Assembly (NCBI GenBank): GCA_002715725.1
Contig: PAZU01000020.1
Location: 1-32,433, forward strand
Direction: 5' to 3'
From: Methanobacteriota archaeon
GTDB taxonomy: Archaea > Thermoplasmatota > Poseidoniia > Poseidoniales > Poseidoniaceae
DNA: 32,433 nucleotides
Shown: in pieces, positions 8,014 through 14,674 of the stretch
Layout of the letters: every line of letters starts with the position of its first letter
Position numbering within the stretch: the stretch's first letter is position 1
Position numbers and translations under genes: made by a program
Notes under the pieces: model-generated
What the model saw: only the letters and a program-made list of their open reading frames with translations
Databases searched by the model: none
What the model was told of the DNA's origin: nothing

Positions 8014-9036
8014 ATGGGCGCTTCGCGTGAGCTATGGCCTAATGAATACACAGTGTTCAATATTCTTTACGATAAATTTCTTTTTTGGTCTATCGTAGTG
8101 GGGCTATTCACTTTCGCCTGGCTCCTAATCGCCATACTGCGATATCGTGAAGGCGTTGACCCTAAGTTAGACAAATCGATTGAGGAACAACCTCAATTGA
8201 AAGTCGGAACCTTCCCTAAAGAGCGCCACAATTTCGATTTAGAATTGGCGTGGTTCGTTGGACCAACAATTCTTGTCATCTGGGTAACGATTCTTGCATT
8301 TGGTTCAATGAACATTGTCTGGGGTGAAGTACAGAACCTACAGGAAGAAGACACCTTCACTGTTGAAGTCAATGGACTACAGTGGTATTGGGACTTCTAC
8401 TATCATGATGAATTTACATGGGAAGACATGGATACTGGCCATGATGTCACTTGGAACTCTAGCGGTCTGACTATCGATGCTGGAGATGGTGCTGCCTCTG
8501 CTTTAGTCAAGTGGGGAAAGCCGGTTTTGGGACTATCTGAAACACTCGACCTAAGCAATACAACAACTATGGATCTGCCATTTGATATTGAAAATCCACA
8601 GAGTGTTGACATTCAAGATGCAGAAGGAAATGTCATTCACCGATGGCAGCACATCCCTGAAGCTACTGAATTTTACACTTACAAGATGAGTGGCAATTTG
8701 ATCATACCCTGTGACGAAAATGTTCTTTTCAATATCTTCAGCATGAACCCTGAAAGAGAGGCTAACTTTGACGCTACCAACACCTACCAAGGTGTACAGC
8801 ACGCATTCTGGCTACAAGAATGGGGAATGAAGGAAGATGCTGTTCCTGGACTTGATTCTGGAACTTGGATGTATGTGCAACCTAACGAGGCTGGCGTATT
8901 CCCAATCAAGTGTGCTGAATACTGTGGTAAAGAGCACTCGCTAATGTACGGTGAAGTCGAAGTTGTTGCTAGAGAAGGCATGACTTGTGATGCTGACTTT
9001 GGAGTTTACTTTGAGCACGAGGAGCTGAGAGGGTGA
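8014..9036 (+). CDS. coxB: Cytochrome c oxidase subunit II with CuA site (340 aa)
   Basis: Electron-entry subunit of the heme-copper oxidase. Two membrane helices come first (about 22-43 LFWSIVVGLFTFAWLLIAIL and 79-99 AWFVGPTILVIWVTILAFG). The extracytoplasmic cupredoxin domain begins at the aromatic strand LQWYWDFYY (122-130). All CuA ligands are present: His263 (VQHAFW), Cys300, Glu302 (backbone), Cys304, His308 and Met311 (CAEYCGKEHSLM). The KEDAVPG motif at 273-279 is also typical. Between the aromatic strand and the core strand MSGNLIIPC there is an extra segment of about 90 residues (132-222), acidic and Thr/Ser-rich, not usual in the family. There is no cleavable signal peptide. First gene of the operon; its stop overlaps the GTG start of subunit I by 4 bp. 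Confidence 0.95.
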   Translation: MGASRELWPNEYTVFNILYDKFLFWSIVVGLFTFAWLLIAILRYREGVDPKLDKSIEEQPQLKVGTFPKERHNFDLELAWFVGPTILVIWVTILAFGSMNIVWGEVQNLQEEDTFTVEVNGLQWYWDFYYHDEFTWEDMDTGHDVTWNSSGLTIDAGDGAASALVKWGKPVLGLSETLDLSNTTTMDLPFDIENPQSVDIQDAEGNVIHRWQHIPEATEFYTYKMSGNLIIPCDENVLFNIFSMNPEREANFDATNTYQGVQHAFWLQEWGMKEDAVPGLDSGTWMYVQPNEAGVFPIKCAEYCGKEHSLMYGEVEVVAREGMTCDADFGVYFEHEELRG

Positions 9037-11333
9037 AGGGAAGGAGTATTGCTGTATTAGCGATTCTTCTAATCGCACTCGCTTCAACCACATCGTTTGA
9101 AGCACGCCAAACCGGAATCGTAACAGAAGGTGGCTGTGGTTGTCACGGCGGTATGAATTCTAACACAGTAATCACAGTAGACGGTCTTCCTGATGTATTC
9201 AACGCATCTGAAGAATATCTGTTCACACTTACTATCACAAACGACGATGTCCCTGTTGAAAACCCTGACCAGAATGGTGGATTCAGTATGATCCTAACCG
9301 GCGGCGGTGTTCTAGAGTCACTACCAGATCTCGACGGTAATACTGCAACTGAGATGGAAGGAGGATTAACTCACAACCTTGACCTCAACGACCGCAGAAC
9401 TTGGGAATTCAAGTGGACTGCACCCGCAGATGATACTGCAATTGCTAGTTTCCTAATCTTTGGAAACGCGGTTAACGGAAATGGAGCAGCAGATGCATCT
9501 GGAGAGGACCAGTGGAACAAACTGGAACTCGATGTCCCTGGAATAAACGCCAACCCTAGCGCACCTAGCGCTGAAGCACTGACTATCCTAATGACCGTCA
9601 TCGGATTAGCGCTTGGCCTAATCCTAATCGGTAGCATGTGGGTATTCTACACACGCAACCCTGAAAACTTCTCAATCGGAAACTTCTGGGCTTACCTCAA
9701 GCCATGGTTGACTACAACTGACCACAAGCAAGTCGGTATCCTGTATTTCCTATACGGTTTCTTCTTCTTCCTAGTGGGTGGATTACTGGCACTTCTATTC
9801 CGTATCCAATTGGCTTTCCCTGAGAATGATTTCTTGACCCAAGCAGAATACAACTCATTCTTCACTCTGCACGGAACAACCATGATTTTCCTTGCAGCAA
9901 TGCCAATGATTGCAGGATTCATGAACTACATCTTGCCTCTACAGATTGGTGCTAAAGATTTAGCATTCCCAAGAATTAACGCACTTGGGTTCTGGATTAT
10001 TGTAGCAGCAGCTCCGCTAATCTTCACAGGCGTATGGAGTGGTGAAGCAGCGGACATCACCTGGGTTATGTATCCACCTTACTCTAGCCTAAGTGGCCAT
10101 GCAGGAGGTCCTAACCCTGGAACGATTGCATTCATTTCTGGTATTGCATTACTGGGTGCATCTTCGACTCTATCCGGTGTTAACTTCGTAACTACCACCT
10201 TCACAATGCGTGCAAAGGGTGTAGGCTGGATGAAGATGCCTCTGTTCACTTGGTCGGTTCTAATCAGCGTATTCATGCTGTATGTTAGCCTACCAGCATT
10301 CATCATTGGTATCTTCTTCTTACTATTTGATTCGACGATAGGTACCACCTTCTTCACAGCAGGTGGCGACCCGTTACTGTTCCAGCACCTGTTCTGGTTC
10401 TTCGGCCATCCTGAAGTATACGTGGTGGTTGTTCCAGCGTTCGGAATTGTTTCTGAAGTCTTAGCTACAAGCGCTAGAAGGTCTATCTTCGGTTACAGGT
10501 CAATGGTTTATGCAATGGTCGGAATCGGAGTTGTAGGTTTCATCGTTTGGGGGCACCACATGCTAACCAGTGGTATGAGCCCTGCATGGCGTTCTGCGTT
10601 CATGATCACTACAATGGCAGTAGCAATTCCTACCGGTGTTAAAATCTTCAACTGGCTTGCAACACTATGGGGAGGCAGTCTCGTGTTCAAGACCCATACT
10701 CTGTGGTCTCTAGGATTCCTAATCACATTCACACTTGGTGGATTATCTGGAATGTTCTTCCCAGTTGCTGGCCTAGATACACAATTCCATGACGGATACT
10801 TCGTAGTTGCTCACTTCCACTATGTGTTCATCGGTGGAATCATCTTCGCTCTATTCTCAGGAATATACTACTGGTTCCCTAAGGCTACAGGTCGCAAGAT
10901 GAACGAAACCCTTGGATTGTGGCACTTTATCATTGGATTCAGTTCCTACAATGCTGCATTCTGGCCAATGCACGCAGTTGGAATCATGGGTATGCCAAGA
11001 AGAACTCACACCTATGCAGCAGATTCTGGATTTGCAGAATTGAATTTGGCAATTTCCACCTTCGCAATTATCTTTGGACTATCACAATTAATCCTAGTTT
11101 GGAATATCGTGCGTTCAGTCAAGAAGGGCGAGAAGGTAGGAAAGGACCCATGGGGCGGATGGTCGCTTGAATGGGCAGTAACTTCCCCTCCACCAACTCC
11201 ATCCTTCGCAGTCGAGCCAATTCAGCATGATGCTAATGACCCTCAAGACTACCATGAGACCACACTAGAAAGATGGCTCAAGGCGCCGTTTAGAACGATG
11301 AGTACTCTTTGGAATAAGGAGGCGAAATCATGA
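9033..11333 (+). CDS. coxA: Cytochrome c oxidase subunit I fused to an N-terminal Reeler/choice-of-anchor-V-like domain (766 aa)
   Basis: Catalytic subunit of an A1-type proton-pumping oxidase. The core (about 215-700) has heme a ligands His280 and His596, heme a3 ligand His594 (VVAHFHYV), CuB ligands His459, His508 and His509, the cross-linking Tyr463 and channel Glu461 in HPEVY, K-channel Lys537 (PTGVKIFNW) and Asp309 in KDLAFPR. Ahead of it lies an extra region of about 205 residues: a signal peptide (AVLAILLIALASTTSFEA), GGCGCHGG (33-40), and a beta domain with GGFSMILTGGG, RRTWEFKWTAP and SFLIFGNAVNGNG. That pattern is typical of Reeler/choice-of-anchor-V domains. A membrane helix (182-203) links it to the oxidase. 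CxCH replaces the usual CxxCH, so heme binding is uncertain. The GTG start overlaps the subunit II stop (GTGA). Confidence 0.95.
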   Translation: MKGRSIAVLAILLIALASTTSFEARQTGIVTEGGCGCHGGMNSNTVITVDGLPDVFNASEEYLFTLTITNDDVPVENPDQNGGFSMILTGGGVLESLPDLDGNTATEMEGGLTHNLDLNDRRTWEFKWTAPADDTAIASFLIFGNAVNGNGAADASGEDQWNKLELDVPGINANPSAPSAEALTILMTVIGLALGLILIGSMWVFYTRNPENFSIGNFWAYLKPWLTTTDHKQVGILYFLYGFFFFLVGGLLALLFRIQLAFPENDFLTQAEYNSFFTLHGTTMIFLAAMPMIAGFMNYILPLQIGAKDLAFPRINALGFWIIVAAAPLIFTGVWSGEAADITWVMYPPYSSLSGHAGGPNPGTIAFISGIALLGASSTLSGVNFVTTTFTMRAKGVGWMKMPLFTWSVLISVFMLYVSLPAFIIGIFFLLFDSTIGTTFFTAGGDPLLFQHLFWFFGHPEVYVVVVPAFGIVSEVLATSARRSIFGYRSMVYAMVGIGVVGFIVWGHHMLTSGMSPAWRSAFMITTMAVAIPTGVKIFNWLATLWGGSLVFKTHTLWSLGFLITFTLGGLSGMFFPVAGLDTQFHDGYFVVAHFHYVFIGGIIFALFSGIYYWFPKATGRKMNETLGLWHFIIGFSSYNAAFWPMHAVGIMGMPRRTHTYAADSGFAELNLAISTFAIIFGLSQLILVWNIVRSVKKGEKVGKDPWGGWSLEWAVTSPPPTPSFAVEPIQHDANDPQDYHETTLERWLKAPFRTMSTLWNKEAKS

Positions 11334-12637
11334 GCGGAAGTCTGCACGATGTCAAGAACGAAGTCTGGATGAGAACAGTACTTATCTCGGTCGTCTTCTT
11401 AGCAGTTGGCGGAGCAGCTTACGGTGCGTTTGCTGTAGGAATAGGCTCTGTTAAGCACAGTGAGTGGGATGATGCACACCATGACTTAGAAGATGCAGAA
11501 GTCCAATGGAATGAAGCAAATGAAACAGGAACTTTAGCAGAAAAAGAATCTGCTGGTGTTGCTTGGGAGGATGCGCATCATGCAGATGTTGATGCCCATT
11601 TATCTTACTTGACGTGGGCCACAGCTGGGAAAACAATTCTAGTGATGATGATAATCTATGCTGCATTTTACGGCATATCTGGATTCTACAATAGTATTCA
11701 ACCAGAAGAAGAGCATGATGACCATCACCATGACGATGACCATGAAGAACACCATGGTTCGGCCTCTCCAATCTTAATGGCAACCGGTATTCTACTATTC
11801 ATGATGGGCTTCCCTGGATTCGTTACAACCTGTAAGTCATTATTGGGATTGGATTACCAAGCCGAAATGGGTGATTTCACACTATCAATAATAGGTAGCG
11901 CCATTCTGATCATAGGTATTGGAAACTGGTGGAACGAGGACCTAAAGGGCCACCATGAACAAATTGCAACATCGCACCCATTCCAAGGCCAAGATATTCG
12001 TAAGGCTGGAATGTGGATCTTCCTAATATCTGAAATGATGGTTTTCGCATCCTTCTTCTCTTCCTACCTAAGAATGAGAACTGGATGGTGTACAGAATGG
12101 GCAGTTGACGCTGGCAAGTGTGATGTCGTCGATACGACTACTGCTTCTGACCTTCTTCGTCACGAAGTTGGAACATTGCTACCTGGTGCTATCAACACCT
12201 TCGCATTGATTATCTCATCATACACAATCGTACTAGCGCTAAAGACCGCTAAGAATGTCGATTGGCAGCCTTCTAAGAATGCACTTATGGCTAAATTATT
12301 CCCGACTCGCAAGAAGACTGTTAGGAACTACCTAATCATCACTCTAGCACTTGGTTCTCTGTTCATTGTATTGAAGTTAGTAGAGTGGAGCCATCTAATC
12401 GCTGAAGGATTCACAATCGATACTCAAGCAGGTTCAATCTTCTATGTGGCAACTGGTGCTCACGGACTGCACGTATTTGTTGGATTATTAGTGATGCTAT
12501 TCATGATATTCAAGGCTGATGTCCTTGAAGACGGATATGACGAACATAACGGCCAAGGAATCGAATACTTCGGTTTGTATTGGCACTTCGTGGATTTGGC
12601 GTGGGTTGCCATCTTCCCGGCATTCTATCTTTACTGA
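11330..12637 (+). CDS. coxC: Cytochrome c oxidase subunit III with two extra N-terminal helices and His-rich linker (435 aa)
   Basis: Structural subunit of the oxidase. The COX3 core shows GMWIFLISEMMVFASFFSSYL, FYVATGAHGLHVFVGLL and the C-terminal YFGLYWHFVDLAWVAIFPAFYLY. I count nine membrane helices: seven in the core plus two before it (about 16-38 and 99-120). Between those two is an acidic, His-bearing loop (HSEWDDAHHDLEDAE...DAHHADVDAH). The linker to the core, residues 129-142, is a His/Asp/Glu cluster (HDDHHHDDDHEEHHG) that could bind metal. At 435 residues it is well above the usual 200-300. The ATG overlaps the subunit I stop by 4 bp (ATGA) and follows GGAGGCGAAATC, a good ribosome-binding site. 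Confidence 0.93.
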   Translation: MSGSLHDVKNEVWMRTVLISVVFLAVGGAAYGAFAVGIGSVKHSEWDDAHHDLEDAEVQWNEANETGTLAEKESAGVAWEDAHHADVDAHLSYLTWATAGKTILVMMIIYAAFYGISGFYNSIQPEEEHDDHHHDDDHEEHHGSASPILMATGILLFMMGFPGFVTTCKSLLGLDYQAEMGDFTLSIIGSAILIIGIGNWWNEDLKGHHEQIATSHPFQGQDIRKAGMWIFLISEMMVFASFFSSYLRMRTGWCTEWAVDAGKCDVVDTTTASDLLRHEVGTLLPGAINTFALIISSYTIVLALKTAKNVDWQPSKNALMAKLFPTRKKTVRNYLIITLALGSLFIVLKLVEWSHLIAEGFTIDTQAGSIFYVATGAHGLHVFVGLLVMLFMIFKADVLEDGYDEHNGQGIEYFGLYWHFVDLAWVAIFPAFYLY

Positions 12638-12646
12638 GGCGATAAT

Positions 12647-13051
12647 ATGGGTGAACACAAGTATACAGGACCAATAGCAGGAATATTCCAGAAGATGGCA
12701 GATTGGATTGGAAAGGATGTTTATTACGTAAATTTCCTAATTCTGATGTTCTTCACATTATTCGAAGTTGCAGCTGTTTTCTTCGAAGTAATCCCAGGAA
12801 CTGACATCGTGATAACCCGTGGCGCCGTATGGGGTGTTTTGATTGTTGTTGGAATTATCAAAGGATATGGAATCGCTGCATTCTTTATGCACTTGAAAGG
12901 AGACCCTTTCATCTACACTAGAACAGCATTATTCCCTGTTCTTTTCGTTGCATTGATGCTTTGGGGAATCGGATTATCCAACCCTGCAGGTATCGACCAA
13001 CTTCCAGCATGGTGCACTCCTAACTGGGATTACTCTTACGTAACAGAATAA
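12647..13051 (+). CDS. Cytochrome oxidase subunit IV (prokaryotic type, 134 aa)
   Basis: Small accessory subunit of prokaryotic heme-copper oxidases (COX4/CtaF/CyoD-like). Three membrane helices can be seen: NFLILMFFTLFEVAAVFFEVI (29-49), AVWGVLIVVGIIKGYGIAAF and ALFPVLFVALMLWGIGL. The second ends in the family signature IKGYGIAAFFMHLK. The C-terminus is short and extracytoplasmic or periplasm-facing (WCTPNWDYSYVTE). It starts 9 bp after the subunit III stop, with GAGGCGATAAT just upstream, and closes the four-gene oxidase operon before a 47-bp gap with a likely new promoter. Confidence 0.88.
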   Translation: MGEHKYTGPIAGIFQKMADWIGKDVYYVNFLILMFFTLFEVAAVFFEVIPGTDIVITRGAVWGVLIVVGIIKGYGIAAFFMHLKGDPFIYTRTALFPVLFVALMLWGIGLSNPAGIDQLPAWCTPNWDYSYVTE

Positions 13052-13098: not shown

Positions 13099-14493
13099 AT
13101 GCGCTGGCTTTCTATCGCTATTGTAATACTATTGTGTGCATCTACTATACCTGCTAGCAGTGCAGGAGACGGTCATGGAAATGACGCTCATTGGAACGGT
13201 TATGTTTTGGATAGAGGGTCGATTCCAAATCACGTTCTAATCGACCAAAATTTTGACTATTATTCACTACATACAGGTAATTCTGATGTTATTGTGGTTG
13301 CATTCATTTTCACCACCTGCCCAGATGTATGCCCAGTGATTACGAACAACCTAATCCAAGCCGAAGATAAACTCGAAGATGTTGATTACCAATTCATCTC
13401 TATCACTGTAGACCCTGGTAATGACAAGCCAAATGTGCTCAGAGAATATATGGAAGACTATGGAGCAACATGGCCTCACCTTACTGGTGAATTAGAAGAT
13501 TTAGAAACCGTTTGGGATTCTTTCTTGATCAATGTTTCAACAGAAGAAATAGAAAACCACGACCATGATCACGGCCATGACCATGATGGTTCAATGGATA
13601 GCGAAGACCATTCTACAGTAACCGTGGTAATGCCCAATGGAACAGGTACTGAGCACGATGTAGAACCAAAAGGATGGGAGCAACTCACCGCATCTGCTTA
13701 CCAAGAGGGATGGAATATCAATTCTAGCTCTAGCCAATGGGGTAATTTTGTTTCTGGGATAAACAATGATGATGCACCATCTGATTATTCTTGGTGGTGG
13801 GAGTTACACTCATGGAATGAAACCACCAATGCTTGGCAATCATCTGCTACAGGTATTGATGATGTAGAGGCTGGCCCTCTTGCATTCGCACCTAATTCCA
13901 CAGATGATTCTGTAATCCCTCTTCCTGAAGATGCTCATGATTCTGTTTTCTTCGTCGTTCAATCTAATGGAACAAACAGTTCTGCAGAGTTGAATGATGT
14001 CAATGCCTGGCACATGTCACTTGGTGCTCTAGATTCTTTTGAAGCCCCTGATTCGGAGTGGGGCCATTATATGAATTCTATCGACGGTGTTGAAGCCCCC
14101 GCTGACTATTCATGGTGGTGGCAATTACACTACTGGAATGAGACTTCTAATGCATGGAGTGAAAGTATGGTTGGTATGGATTCACTAATCGACAAAGAAC
14201 ACATTGCTTGGGCACCAAACTCAACCTTGGATGAATTTATTCCTACCCCTGGAGATGTGGAAACCAGTACTTCACATTCTACTCAAACGTTCATACTTGA
14301 TGCTGACTGGAAGCCAAAGGCTGTGTTCGTTGGATATGATTGGGATGTTGACAAATTCGTCGACGATGTCAAGAGAGCTGCAAACTTAGCTTCAGACCCT
14401 GACGACCATGATCATGGTCTTCCTGGCTTCGTATTTGCAACTGTTGCAGCGAGCCTTGGTCTAGCGATTATCGCTAGCAGTCGCGAAGAATAG
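13099..14493 (+). CDS. sco1: SCO1/SenC-type copper chaperone with duplicated domain inserted in its fold (464 aa)
   Basis: Extracytoplasmic copper-delivery protein for the CuA or CuB site, placed directly after the oxidase genes. A signal peptide (SIAIVILLCASTIPASSA) precedes a thioredoxin-like SCO domain with the copper Cys pair Cys74/Cys78 (TTCPDVCPV) and SITVDPGNDKPNVLREY. The domain is interrupted after VWDSFLINVS (about 147) and resumes near 391, where His393 (TSHSTQTFILD) fits the third copper ligand. The insert carries a His/Asp cluster (154-162) and two similar units (about 205-276 and 304-384). Each has SYSWWWxLHxWNETxNAW-type cores, close to DUF4430-like domains. A second His tract (DDHDHG) and a C-terminal membrane helix (GFVFATVAASLGLAIIA) end the protein. 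Normal SCO proteins are about 200 residues. Confidence 0.88.
   Translation: MRWLSIAIVILLCASTIPASSAGDGHGNDAHWNGYVLDRGSIPNHVLIDQNFDYYSLHTGNSDVIVVAFIFTTCPDVCPVITNNLIQAEDKLEDVDYQFISITVDPGNDKPNVLREYMEDYGATWPHLTGELEDLETVWDSFLINVSTEEIENHDHDHGHDHDGSMDSEDHSTVTVVMPNGTGTEHDVEPKGWEQLTASAYQEGWNINSSSSQWGNFVSGINNDDAPSDYSWWWELHSWNETTNAWQSSATGIDDVEAGPLAFAPNSTDDSVIPLPEDAHDSVFFVVQSNGTNSSAELNDVNAWHMSLGALDSFEAPDSEWGHYMNSIDGVEAPADYSWWWQLHYWNETSNAWSESMVGMDSLIDKEHIAWAPNSTLDEFIPTPGDVETSTSHSTQTFILDADWKPKAVFVGYDWDVDKFVDDVKRAANLASDPDDHDHGLPGFVFATVAASLGLAIIASSREE
13711..14250 (+). repeat. Internal protein-coding duplication inside SCO
   Basis: Two in-frame units of about 72 and 81 codons (13711-13926 and 14008-14250) share the order W...S-x-W-G, a short I-N/D-G turn, APxDYSWWW, LHxWNET, NAW, then AWAPNST/AFAPNST and IPxP. 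They are divergent at the nucleotide level, so the duplication is old rather than a recent copy. Confidence 0.75.
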
Positions 14494-14536: not shown

Positions 14537-14619
14537 GCGGAGATCGCATAGCCTGGTATTGCGGTGGACTTGAAATCCACTGTCCCTCGGACACGGGAGT
14601 TCGAATCTCTCTCTCCGCG
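14537..14619 (+). tRNA. tRNA-Ser (UGA anticodon)
   Basis: Class II tRNA folded by eye. The 7-bp acceptor GCGGAGA pairs with TCTCCGC (14612-14618). The D arm starts at GCATAGCC. The anticodon stem GTGGA/TCCAC encloses loop CTTGAAA with anticodon TGA. The long variable arm is TGTCC/GGACA with a CTC loop. The T arm is GGGAG/CTCTC around TTCGAAT with one G-U pair. The discriminator is G; the next bases are CCT, so CCA is not encoded and must be added enzymatically. Long variable arm and UGA both indicate serine. No intron. Confidence 0.95.
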
Positions 14620-14674
14620 CCTCTCTAATTTGAATGTAATTTTGCTTGAAATATGGGAAGGCTTCAACAACTCA

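Follow-up and report, generated by a model that had tools for sequence, protein, structure and literature searches.

The closest described relatives of the protein reported here are the SCO copper chaperones, in which the CxxxC motif and the copper-ligand histidine lie roughly 86-90 residues apart by the numbering of the Bacillus protein (BsSco) and of human SCO1. PCuAC is the usual second chaperone of the CuA site. To our knowledge, the assembly of CuA sites in archaea is poorly known, and this includes the Poseidoniales, archaea that are abundant in surface ocean waters but have not been cultured. Previous work assigned H135 of B. subtilis Sco and H176 of S. lividans Sco as copper ligands (PMC3603459). 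A second group that bears on our findings is the transcobalamin clade of SLBB domains, described as beta-grasp domains with a ligand-contacting hairpin that are less frequent in euryarchaea, and argued to bind soluble ligands including B12 (PMC1796856). In a Poseidoniales (Marine Group II) archaeon we find a SCO gene whose product combines features of both groups, the SCO domain being split by an insert that holds two related units. The architecture is real and well conserved, and it is apparently undescribed: in the open-access literature we found no paper that reports a SCO protein with such an insert.

The oxidase operon and its split SCO protein

The window, by which we mean the whole stretch of 32,433 nucleotides that was analysed, carries a COX2-COX1-COX3-COX4-SCO operon, all on the forward strand, of which the SCO gene is the last member. 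COX2 (8014-9036; PF00116, E 5.5e-9) contains the CuA-type ligand motif CAEYCGKEHSLM, as read from the sequence, and is the likely client of the chaperone. It is followed by COX1 (9033-11333; PF00115, E 1.3e-141), COX3 (11330-12637; PF00510, E 1.3e-19), a COX4-like subunit gene (12647-13051; PF03626, E 1.6e-9) and finally the SCO open reading frame (13099-14493; 464 amino acids). At least one cox gene lies directly upstream of SCO in all 76 SCO loci compared (L054-L129), in the order COX2-COX1-COX3-COX4; loci L130-L133 are partial or unit-only matches and stand outside this count. The first-pass annotation had remarked that the chaperone adjoins oxidase genes, and this holds. From the operon setting, specialised copper delivery by the insert-bearing SCO is plausible. 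The neighbouring genes showed two further features: COX1 has at its N-terminus an additional domain of ~200 residues on the extracytoplasmic side, which matches choice-of-anchor V (NF041895, E 4e-18) and contains a GGCGCHGG motif, and a tRNA-Ser (tga) at 14537-14621 directly follows the SCO gene. Because this tRNA overlaps the listed start of the open reading frame given from 14564, that frame probably begins further downstream.

Judged by its sequence, the 464-residue protein is a member of the SCO family. It matches the SCO1/SenC profile PF02630 at residues 47-160 (E 1.3e-21; 77.4 bits, above the curated cut-off of 22.8), and its closest solved structures in a PDB sequence search are SCO proteins. 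The N-terminal part of the thioredoxin-like domain comprises residues 31-150 (13189-13548), with PDB matches to 1xzo, 4hde and 6n5u and with AF2-predicted strands at 64-70 and 97-103 and a helix at 77-91; it includes the copper-binding motif CPDVC (13318-13332) with Cys74 and Cys78. The C-terminal part, residues 387-432 (14257-14394), aligns (E 2e-6) with the C-terminal end of an ordinary SCO from this genome and contains His393 (14275-14277). All 50 relatives compared retain both cysteines and His393. As first claimed, 315 residues separate the cysteine pair from this histidine, the SCO domain being interrupted by an insert of ~236 residues. A hydrophobic helix at residues 444-462 (14428-14484), recognised in the sequence and in the AF2 secondary structure, is a probable membrane anchor. 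The SCO proteins of the archaeon's own family share this helix. It is missing from several one-unit SCOs of the second Poseidoniales family, which carry a lipobox-like motif at the N-terminus.

To see whether the SCO fold closes over the insert, we removed the latter in silico by joining residues 39-150 to 387-436. The PF02630 match then rose from 77.4 bits (profile positions 6-121) to 85.2 bits (6-131), and the phmmer match to Bacillus Sco from a partial 43.8 bits to a full-length 57.6 bits. Since the SCO matches lengthen to the full domain once the insert is taken out, the thioredoxin-like fold probably closes around it. In the same alignment His393 falls on the ligand histidine of Bacillus Sco (1on4/1xzo), in the segment VIHQSSFYLV. 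Together with its invariance, this agrees with the earlier proposal that His393 is the third copper ligand, here assigned by homology. The AF2 model of the full protein, built from 50 sequences (mean pLDDT 82), likewise puts two strands (396-400 and 406-411) and a helix (417-432) after the insert, in the positions that a thioredoxin fold requires. Against closure stand the pTM of this model, 0.50, and the Foldseek comparison, in which SCO structures aligned to it mostly over about 110-120 columns. By homology the two halves are expected to fold together around the insert, with Cys74, Cys78 and His393 close to one another.

It could be argued that the protein is mainly a cell-surface thiol-disulfide reductase or redox sensor and no copper donor. 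SCO proteins do have a thioredoxin fold, redox roles have been proposed (PMC3603459; PMC6307045), and copper might be delivered by the two further SCO paralogues of the ordinary type that the genome encodes. However, a pure thiol reductase would have no need of the third copper ligand, which is invariant, and the insert-bearing gene is locked to the CuA-oxidase operon whereas the paralogues lie elsewhere. We regard this explanation as highly improbable.

The nested units and the histidine-rich linker

Unit 1 (residues 169-281; 13603-13941) and unit 2 (residues 282-386; 13942-14256) are 39% identical over 104 columns, and their Smith-Waterman score of 227 stands far above those of 1000 shuffles (mean 40, sd 7.5, maximum 73). 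Two related units had been recognised at first pass, and they are confirmed with slightly wider bounds than the 205-276 and 304-384 then given. The suggested likeness to DUF4430 (PF14478) is a divergent one. Neither the window protein nor its separated units give a Pfam match to this family; in searches of Pfam, NCBIfam and the PDB with the window protein, the units found no significant match, 3u7z reaching just E 0.07, and a unit profile run against PDB sequences returned nothing beyond 3u7z at E 0.35. On the other hand, 16 of 74 homologous units do match DUF4430, if divergently (best E 2.8e-6, with the displayed scores below the 23.8-bit cut-off), as do 21 of 50 full-length relatives (best E 9e-5), and the predicted fold agrees. 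Since the sequence searches with the window protein and the profile were weak, our family assignment rests on the relatives' Pfam matches and on the fold.

The AF2 model of unit 1 (pLDDT 91, pTM 0.76) was compared with all solved structures by Foldseek. The top 19 matches were 3u7z, which ranked best, and the beta domains of transcobalamin, intrinsic factor and haptocorrin (E 9e-4 to 0.28), and the next match was noise (E 1.1). The model thus points to a beta-grasp fold like that of the transcobalamin beta domain, that is, of the transcobalamin-clade SLBB type; as the TM-scores were modest (0.42-0.55), we call the units transcobalamin-beta-like. Among the 74 units three tryptophans are invariant and Gly, Pro, Asp, Ser and Leu residues nearly so. 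Both units have evolved under purifying selection (dN/dS ~0.1-0.15), and across genera unit 2 is as well conserved as the N-terminal half of the SCO domain (42-53% against 43-45% identity). We take the conserved position and the purifying selection as an argument that the units have a real function.

It had also been proposed that the insert binds metal. Its entrance is a His/Asp-rich linker (residues 151-168; 13549-13602), predicted with a pLDDT below 50 for residues 149-168. The reported clustering of histidines is present: NHDHDHGHDHDG (residues 153-164) has five histidines within 10 residues, a density matched in only 17 of 5000 protein shuffles. The tract is His-rich in the archaeon's own genus only, with two to six histidines in 12 of 13 sequences against one or two in almost all others. 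We therefore rejected the cluster as a conserved copper trap in general. Single histidines are better kept among the 50 relatives, namely His154 at the insert entrance (13558-13560; 48 of 50, 96%), His305 (82%) and His323 (86%), and among the 74 units there is no conserved Cys/His/Met cluster or set of metal ligands, the invariant residues being Trp, Gly, Asp and Pro. The proposal of a metal-binding module consequently finds weak support at best. A separate candidate, His171, lies in a stretch (DHSTVTVVMPNG) that resembles the SCO ligand strand; it was rejected as an alternative ligand in this clade, where it is 2% conserved. A histidine does occupy this position in several one-unit relatives (L037, L044, L046 and L161).

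The unit is not confined to SCO proteins. In Poseidoniales it occurs inside ZnuA-type substrate-binding proteins of 892-1154 residues, which also contain EF hands and His/Asp tracts. Examples are the zinc/manganese-binding proteins L034, L035, L036, L167 and L168, each split by such tracts and EF hands along with a single transcobalamin-like unit; genes for an ABC ATPase and an ABC-3 permease come after one unit-bearing protein of this type (neighbours of L182). In genome G027, where the operon SCO has no units, a plastocyanin-like cupredoxin carries a transcobalamin-like unit behind it (L172:1006-2496, +). In other Thermoplasmatota the unit precedes beta-propellers, in proteins that have no link to copper. 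The connection between unit and metal in Poseidoniales is therefore suggestive and not exclusive. Stand-alone DUF4430-like lipoproteins also exist in relatives; reading the sequences of the genes beside two of them, we recognised no cobalamin genes.

These observations bear on the possibility that the units act in cis as a ligand-capture module, gripping a soluble small molecule in the way that the beta domain of transcobalamin grips cobalamin. The molecule could be a metal chelate, for instance an organic complex of copper, whose metal would be handed to the SCO site. Such capture would fit the restriction of the fold matches to the transcobalamin, intrinsic factor and haptocorrin beta domains and to 3u7z, itself annotated as a putative metal-binding protein, the case made for soluble ligands in the transcobalamin SLBB clade (PMC1796856), and the presence of the unit in ZnuA-type proteins and on a cupredoxin. 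PCuAC was moreover not found in any of 60 Poseidoniales genomes examined, nor was Cox11 in the same number, a result that allows the insert a part in copper handling without demonstrating one; many organisms, of course, lack PCuAC anyway. A capture module of this kind would nevertheless have to work without conserved Cys/His/Met clusters, the structural likeness is modest, and the unit also sits on proteins with no metal link at all. We consider it unlikely.

Distribution of the units and the insertion loop

The protein was matched in 184 of 194 genomes of the order, in some of them through ordinary SCO paralogues alone. The 80 loci in named genomes are assigned to Poseidoniales (Marine Group II) from the record title or the neighbouring genes, and one nearest relative is labelled MGIIa-K1. 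Locus L085 (CALDQY010000018.1) is titled as an uncultured Rhodobiaceae bacterium and carries a Poseidoniales cox operon with an insert-bearing SCO; as its gene order is that of Poseidoniales, it is probably mis-binned.

The insert is present in both Poseidoniales families and in the sister order. Unit number is 1, 2, 3 or 5 while both SCO halves remain constant, which suggests that the units are accessory in character. SCO proteins of the archaeon's own genus have two or three units. In other genera of its family there are two units and, in addition, an EGF-like HCMC module, and in the second Poseidoniales family a single unit; one unit plus the HCMC module occurs in a sister-order genome of the same class (G196, probably Marine Group III). 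The largest copy number found is five (L123:7917-10214, +). The SCO proteins of G027 and G034 have no units, and since the SCO of G027 is encoded in the same operon, the units are not required for SCO activity as such. In a tree of the SCO core, most insert-bearing SCOs stand apart from the ordinary paralogues, long branches leaving the deepest joins unsure, and a division into unit-free proteins, those with one unit and those with at least two requires six changes against a shuffled mean of 37.8. This is most simply read as a single ancient insertion, after which the unit was duplicated in one family and lost in a few cases, L185 and L206 being likely ones.

The loop that holds the insert immediately precedes the copper-ligand histidine and by homology lies beside the copper site; in relatives it contains other material. 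Paralogues of the second family have a TSP3-like Asp-rich repeat there, G027 and G030 have His/Asp strings, and in sister-order genomes the loop of SCOs encoded beside COX3 and COX4 contains a Cys-rich module and a complete thioredoxin-like domain, which in L218 matches AhpC-TSA (E 3.9e-18, residues 260-356). With EGF-like, Asp-rich and complete thioredoxin-like domains in the same place, the loop is an insertion hotspot. The nested thioredoxin-like domains of the sister-order SCOs L218 (1434-2888, -) and L214 carry CGHC or CSVC motifs. On contig C16 of G030, the SCO L216, encoded beside a COX4 relative, is near-identical to L214 of the sister-order genome G401; assembly contamination or a recent transfer is the probable cause.

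Such unrelated cargo raises the alternative that the insert is a spacer or an adhesive surface module with no part in copper transfer, placed in a loop that tolerates secreted-type domains gained by recombination. The varying number of units and their absence from G027 and G034 would be in keeping with this. Yet purifying selection and the high degree to which unit 2 is conserved between genera are less readily explained in this way, and at least one unit persists in the operon SCO in most of the order while the ordinary paralogues have none. A mere spacer is possible, though on balance we think it rather improbable.

Proposed role and comparison with known systems

Most likely, we infer, the insert serves a CuA chaperone as an accessory module for docking or for gripping a ligand. 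In the mechanism that we favor, with moderate confidence, the split thioredoxin-like halves would fold together around the insert beside the copper site, and the intact core would supply copper to COX2, encoded in the same operon, at its CuA site. The nested units, outside the membrane, would dock a partner, either COX2 or another envelope protein; alternatively, they could keep a small ligand near the place where copper binds. In the archaeon's own genus the His-rich linker may add a weak metal-collecting stretch.

A partner-type cargo is suggested by the sister order, where the SCO loop holds a thioredoxin-like domain. The thioredoxin-like protein TlpA forms a mixed-disulfide complex with ScoI (PDB 4txo), and by analogy the nested thioredoxin would make sense as a fused partner. 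Extending this, one could speculate that in Poseidoniia the chaperone loop became a docking port to which different lineages added different partners in cis, with one to five transcobalamin-like gripping domains in Marine Group II and a TlpA-type thioredoxin-like domain in the sister lineage, which would replace PCuAC and TlpA, and that the gripping unit, found also in ZnuA-type zinc/manganese-binding proteins and a cupredoxin, is a general module for metal handling at the cell surface. So broad a scheme is doubtful as a whole. The insert-bearing SCO offers an entry to CuA assembly in a group where neither PCuAC nor Cox11 was found among 60 genomes, and it suggests what the uncharacterised DUF4430/SLBB domain might do.

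In the two-protein assembly of CuA by PCuAC and SCO, PCuAC would supply the copper-collecting and docking functions that are suggested here for the insert, although the two have no sequence relation. The beta domains of transcobalamin, intrinsic factor and haptocorrin (5no0, 2bb6, 2pmv) share with the units a predicted fold and an extracytoplasmic setting, whereas the units stand in tandem inside a SCO domain, lack the transcobalamin alpha domain and have a Trp-rich SWWWxL motif. DUF4430 and its structure RUMGNA_00854 (3u7z) are linked to the units by the weak Pfam matches of relatives and by the best fold match; the units of the window differ in giving no Pfam match themselves and in being nested in a metallochaperone. 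Finally, like SCO1/SenC/PrrC proteins (Bacillus YpmQ/BsSco, 1xzo; human SCO1; S. lividans Sco), the Poseidoniales protein is thioredoxin-like, with a CxxxC motif and a distal ligand histidine, and is encoded beside CuA oxidase genes, but it adds to this plan a nested insert of ~236 residues before the ligand histidine and a probable C-terminal membrane helix.
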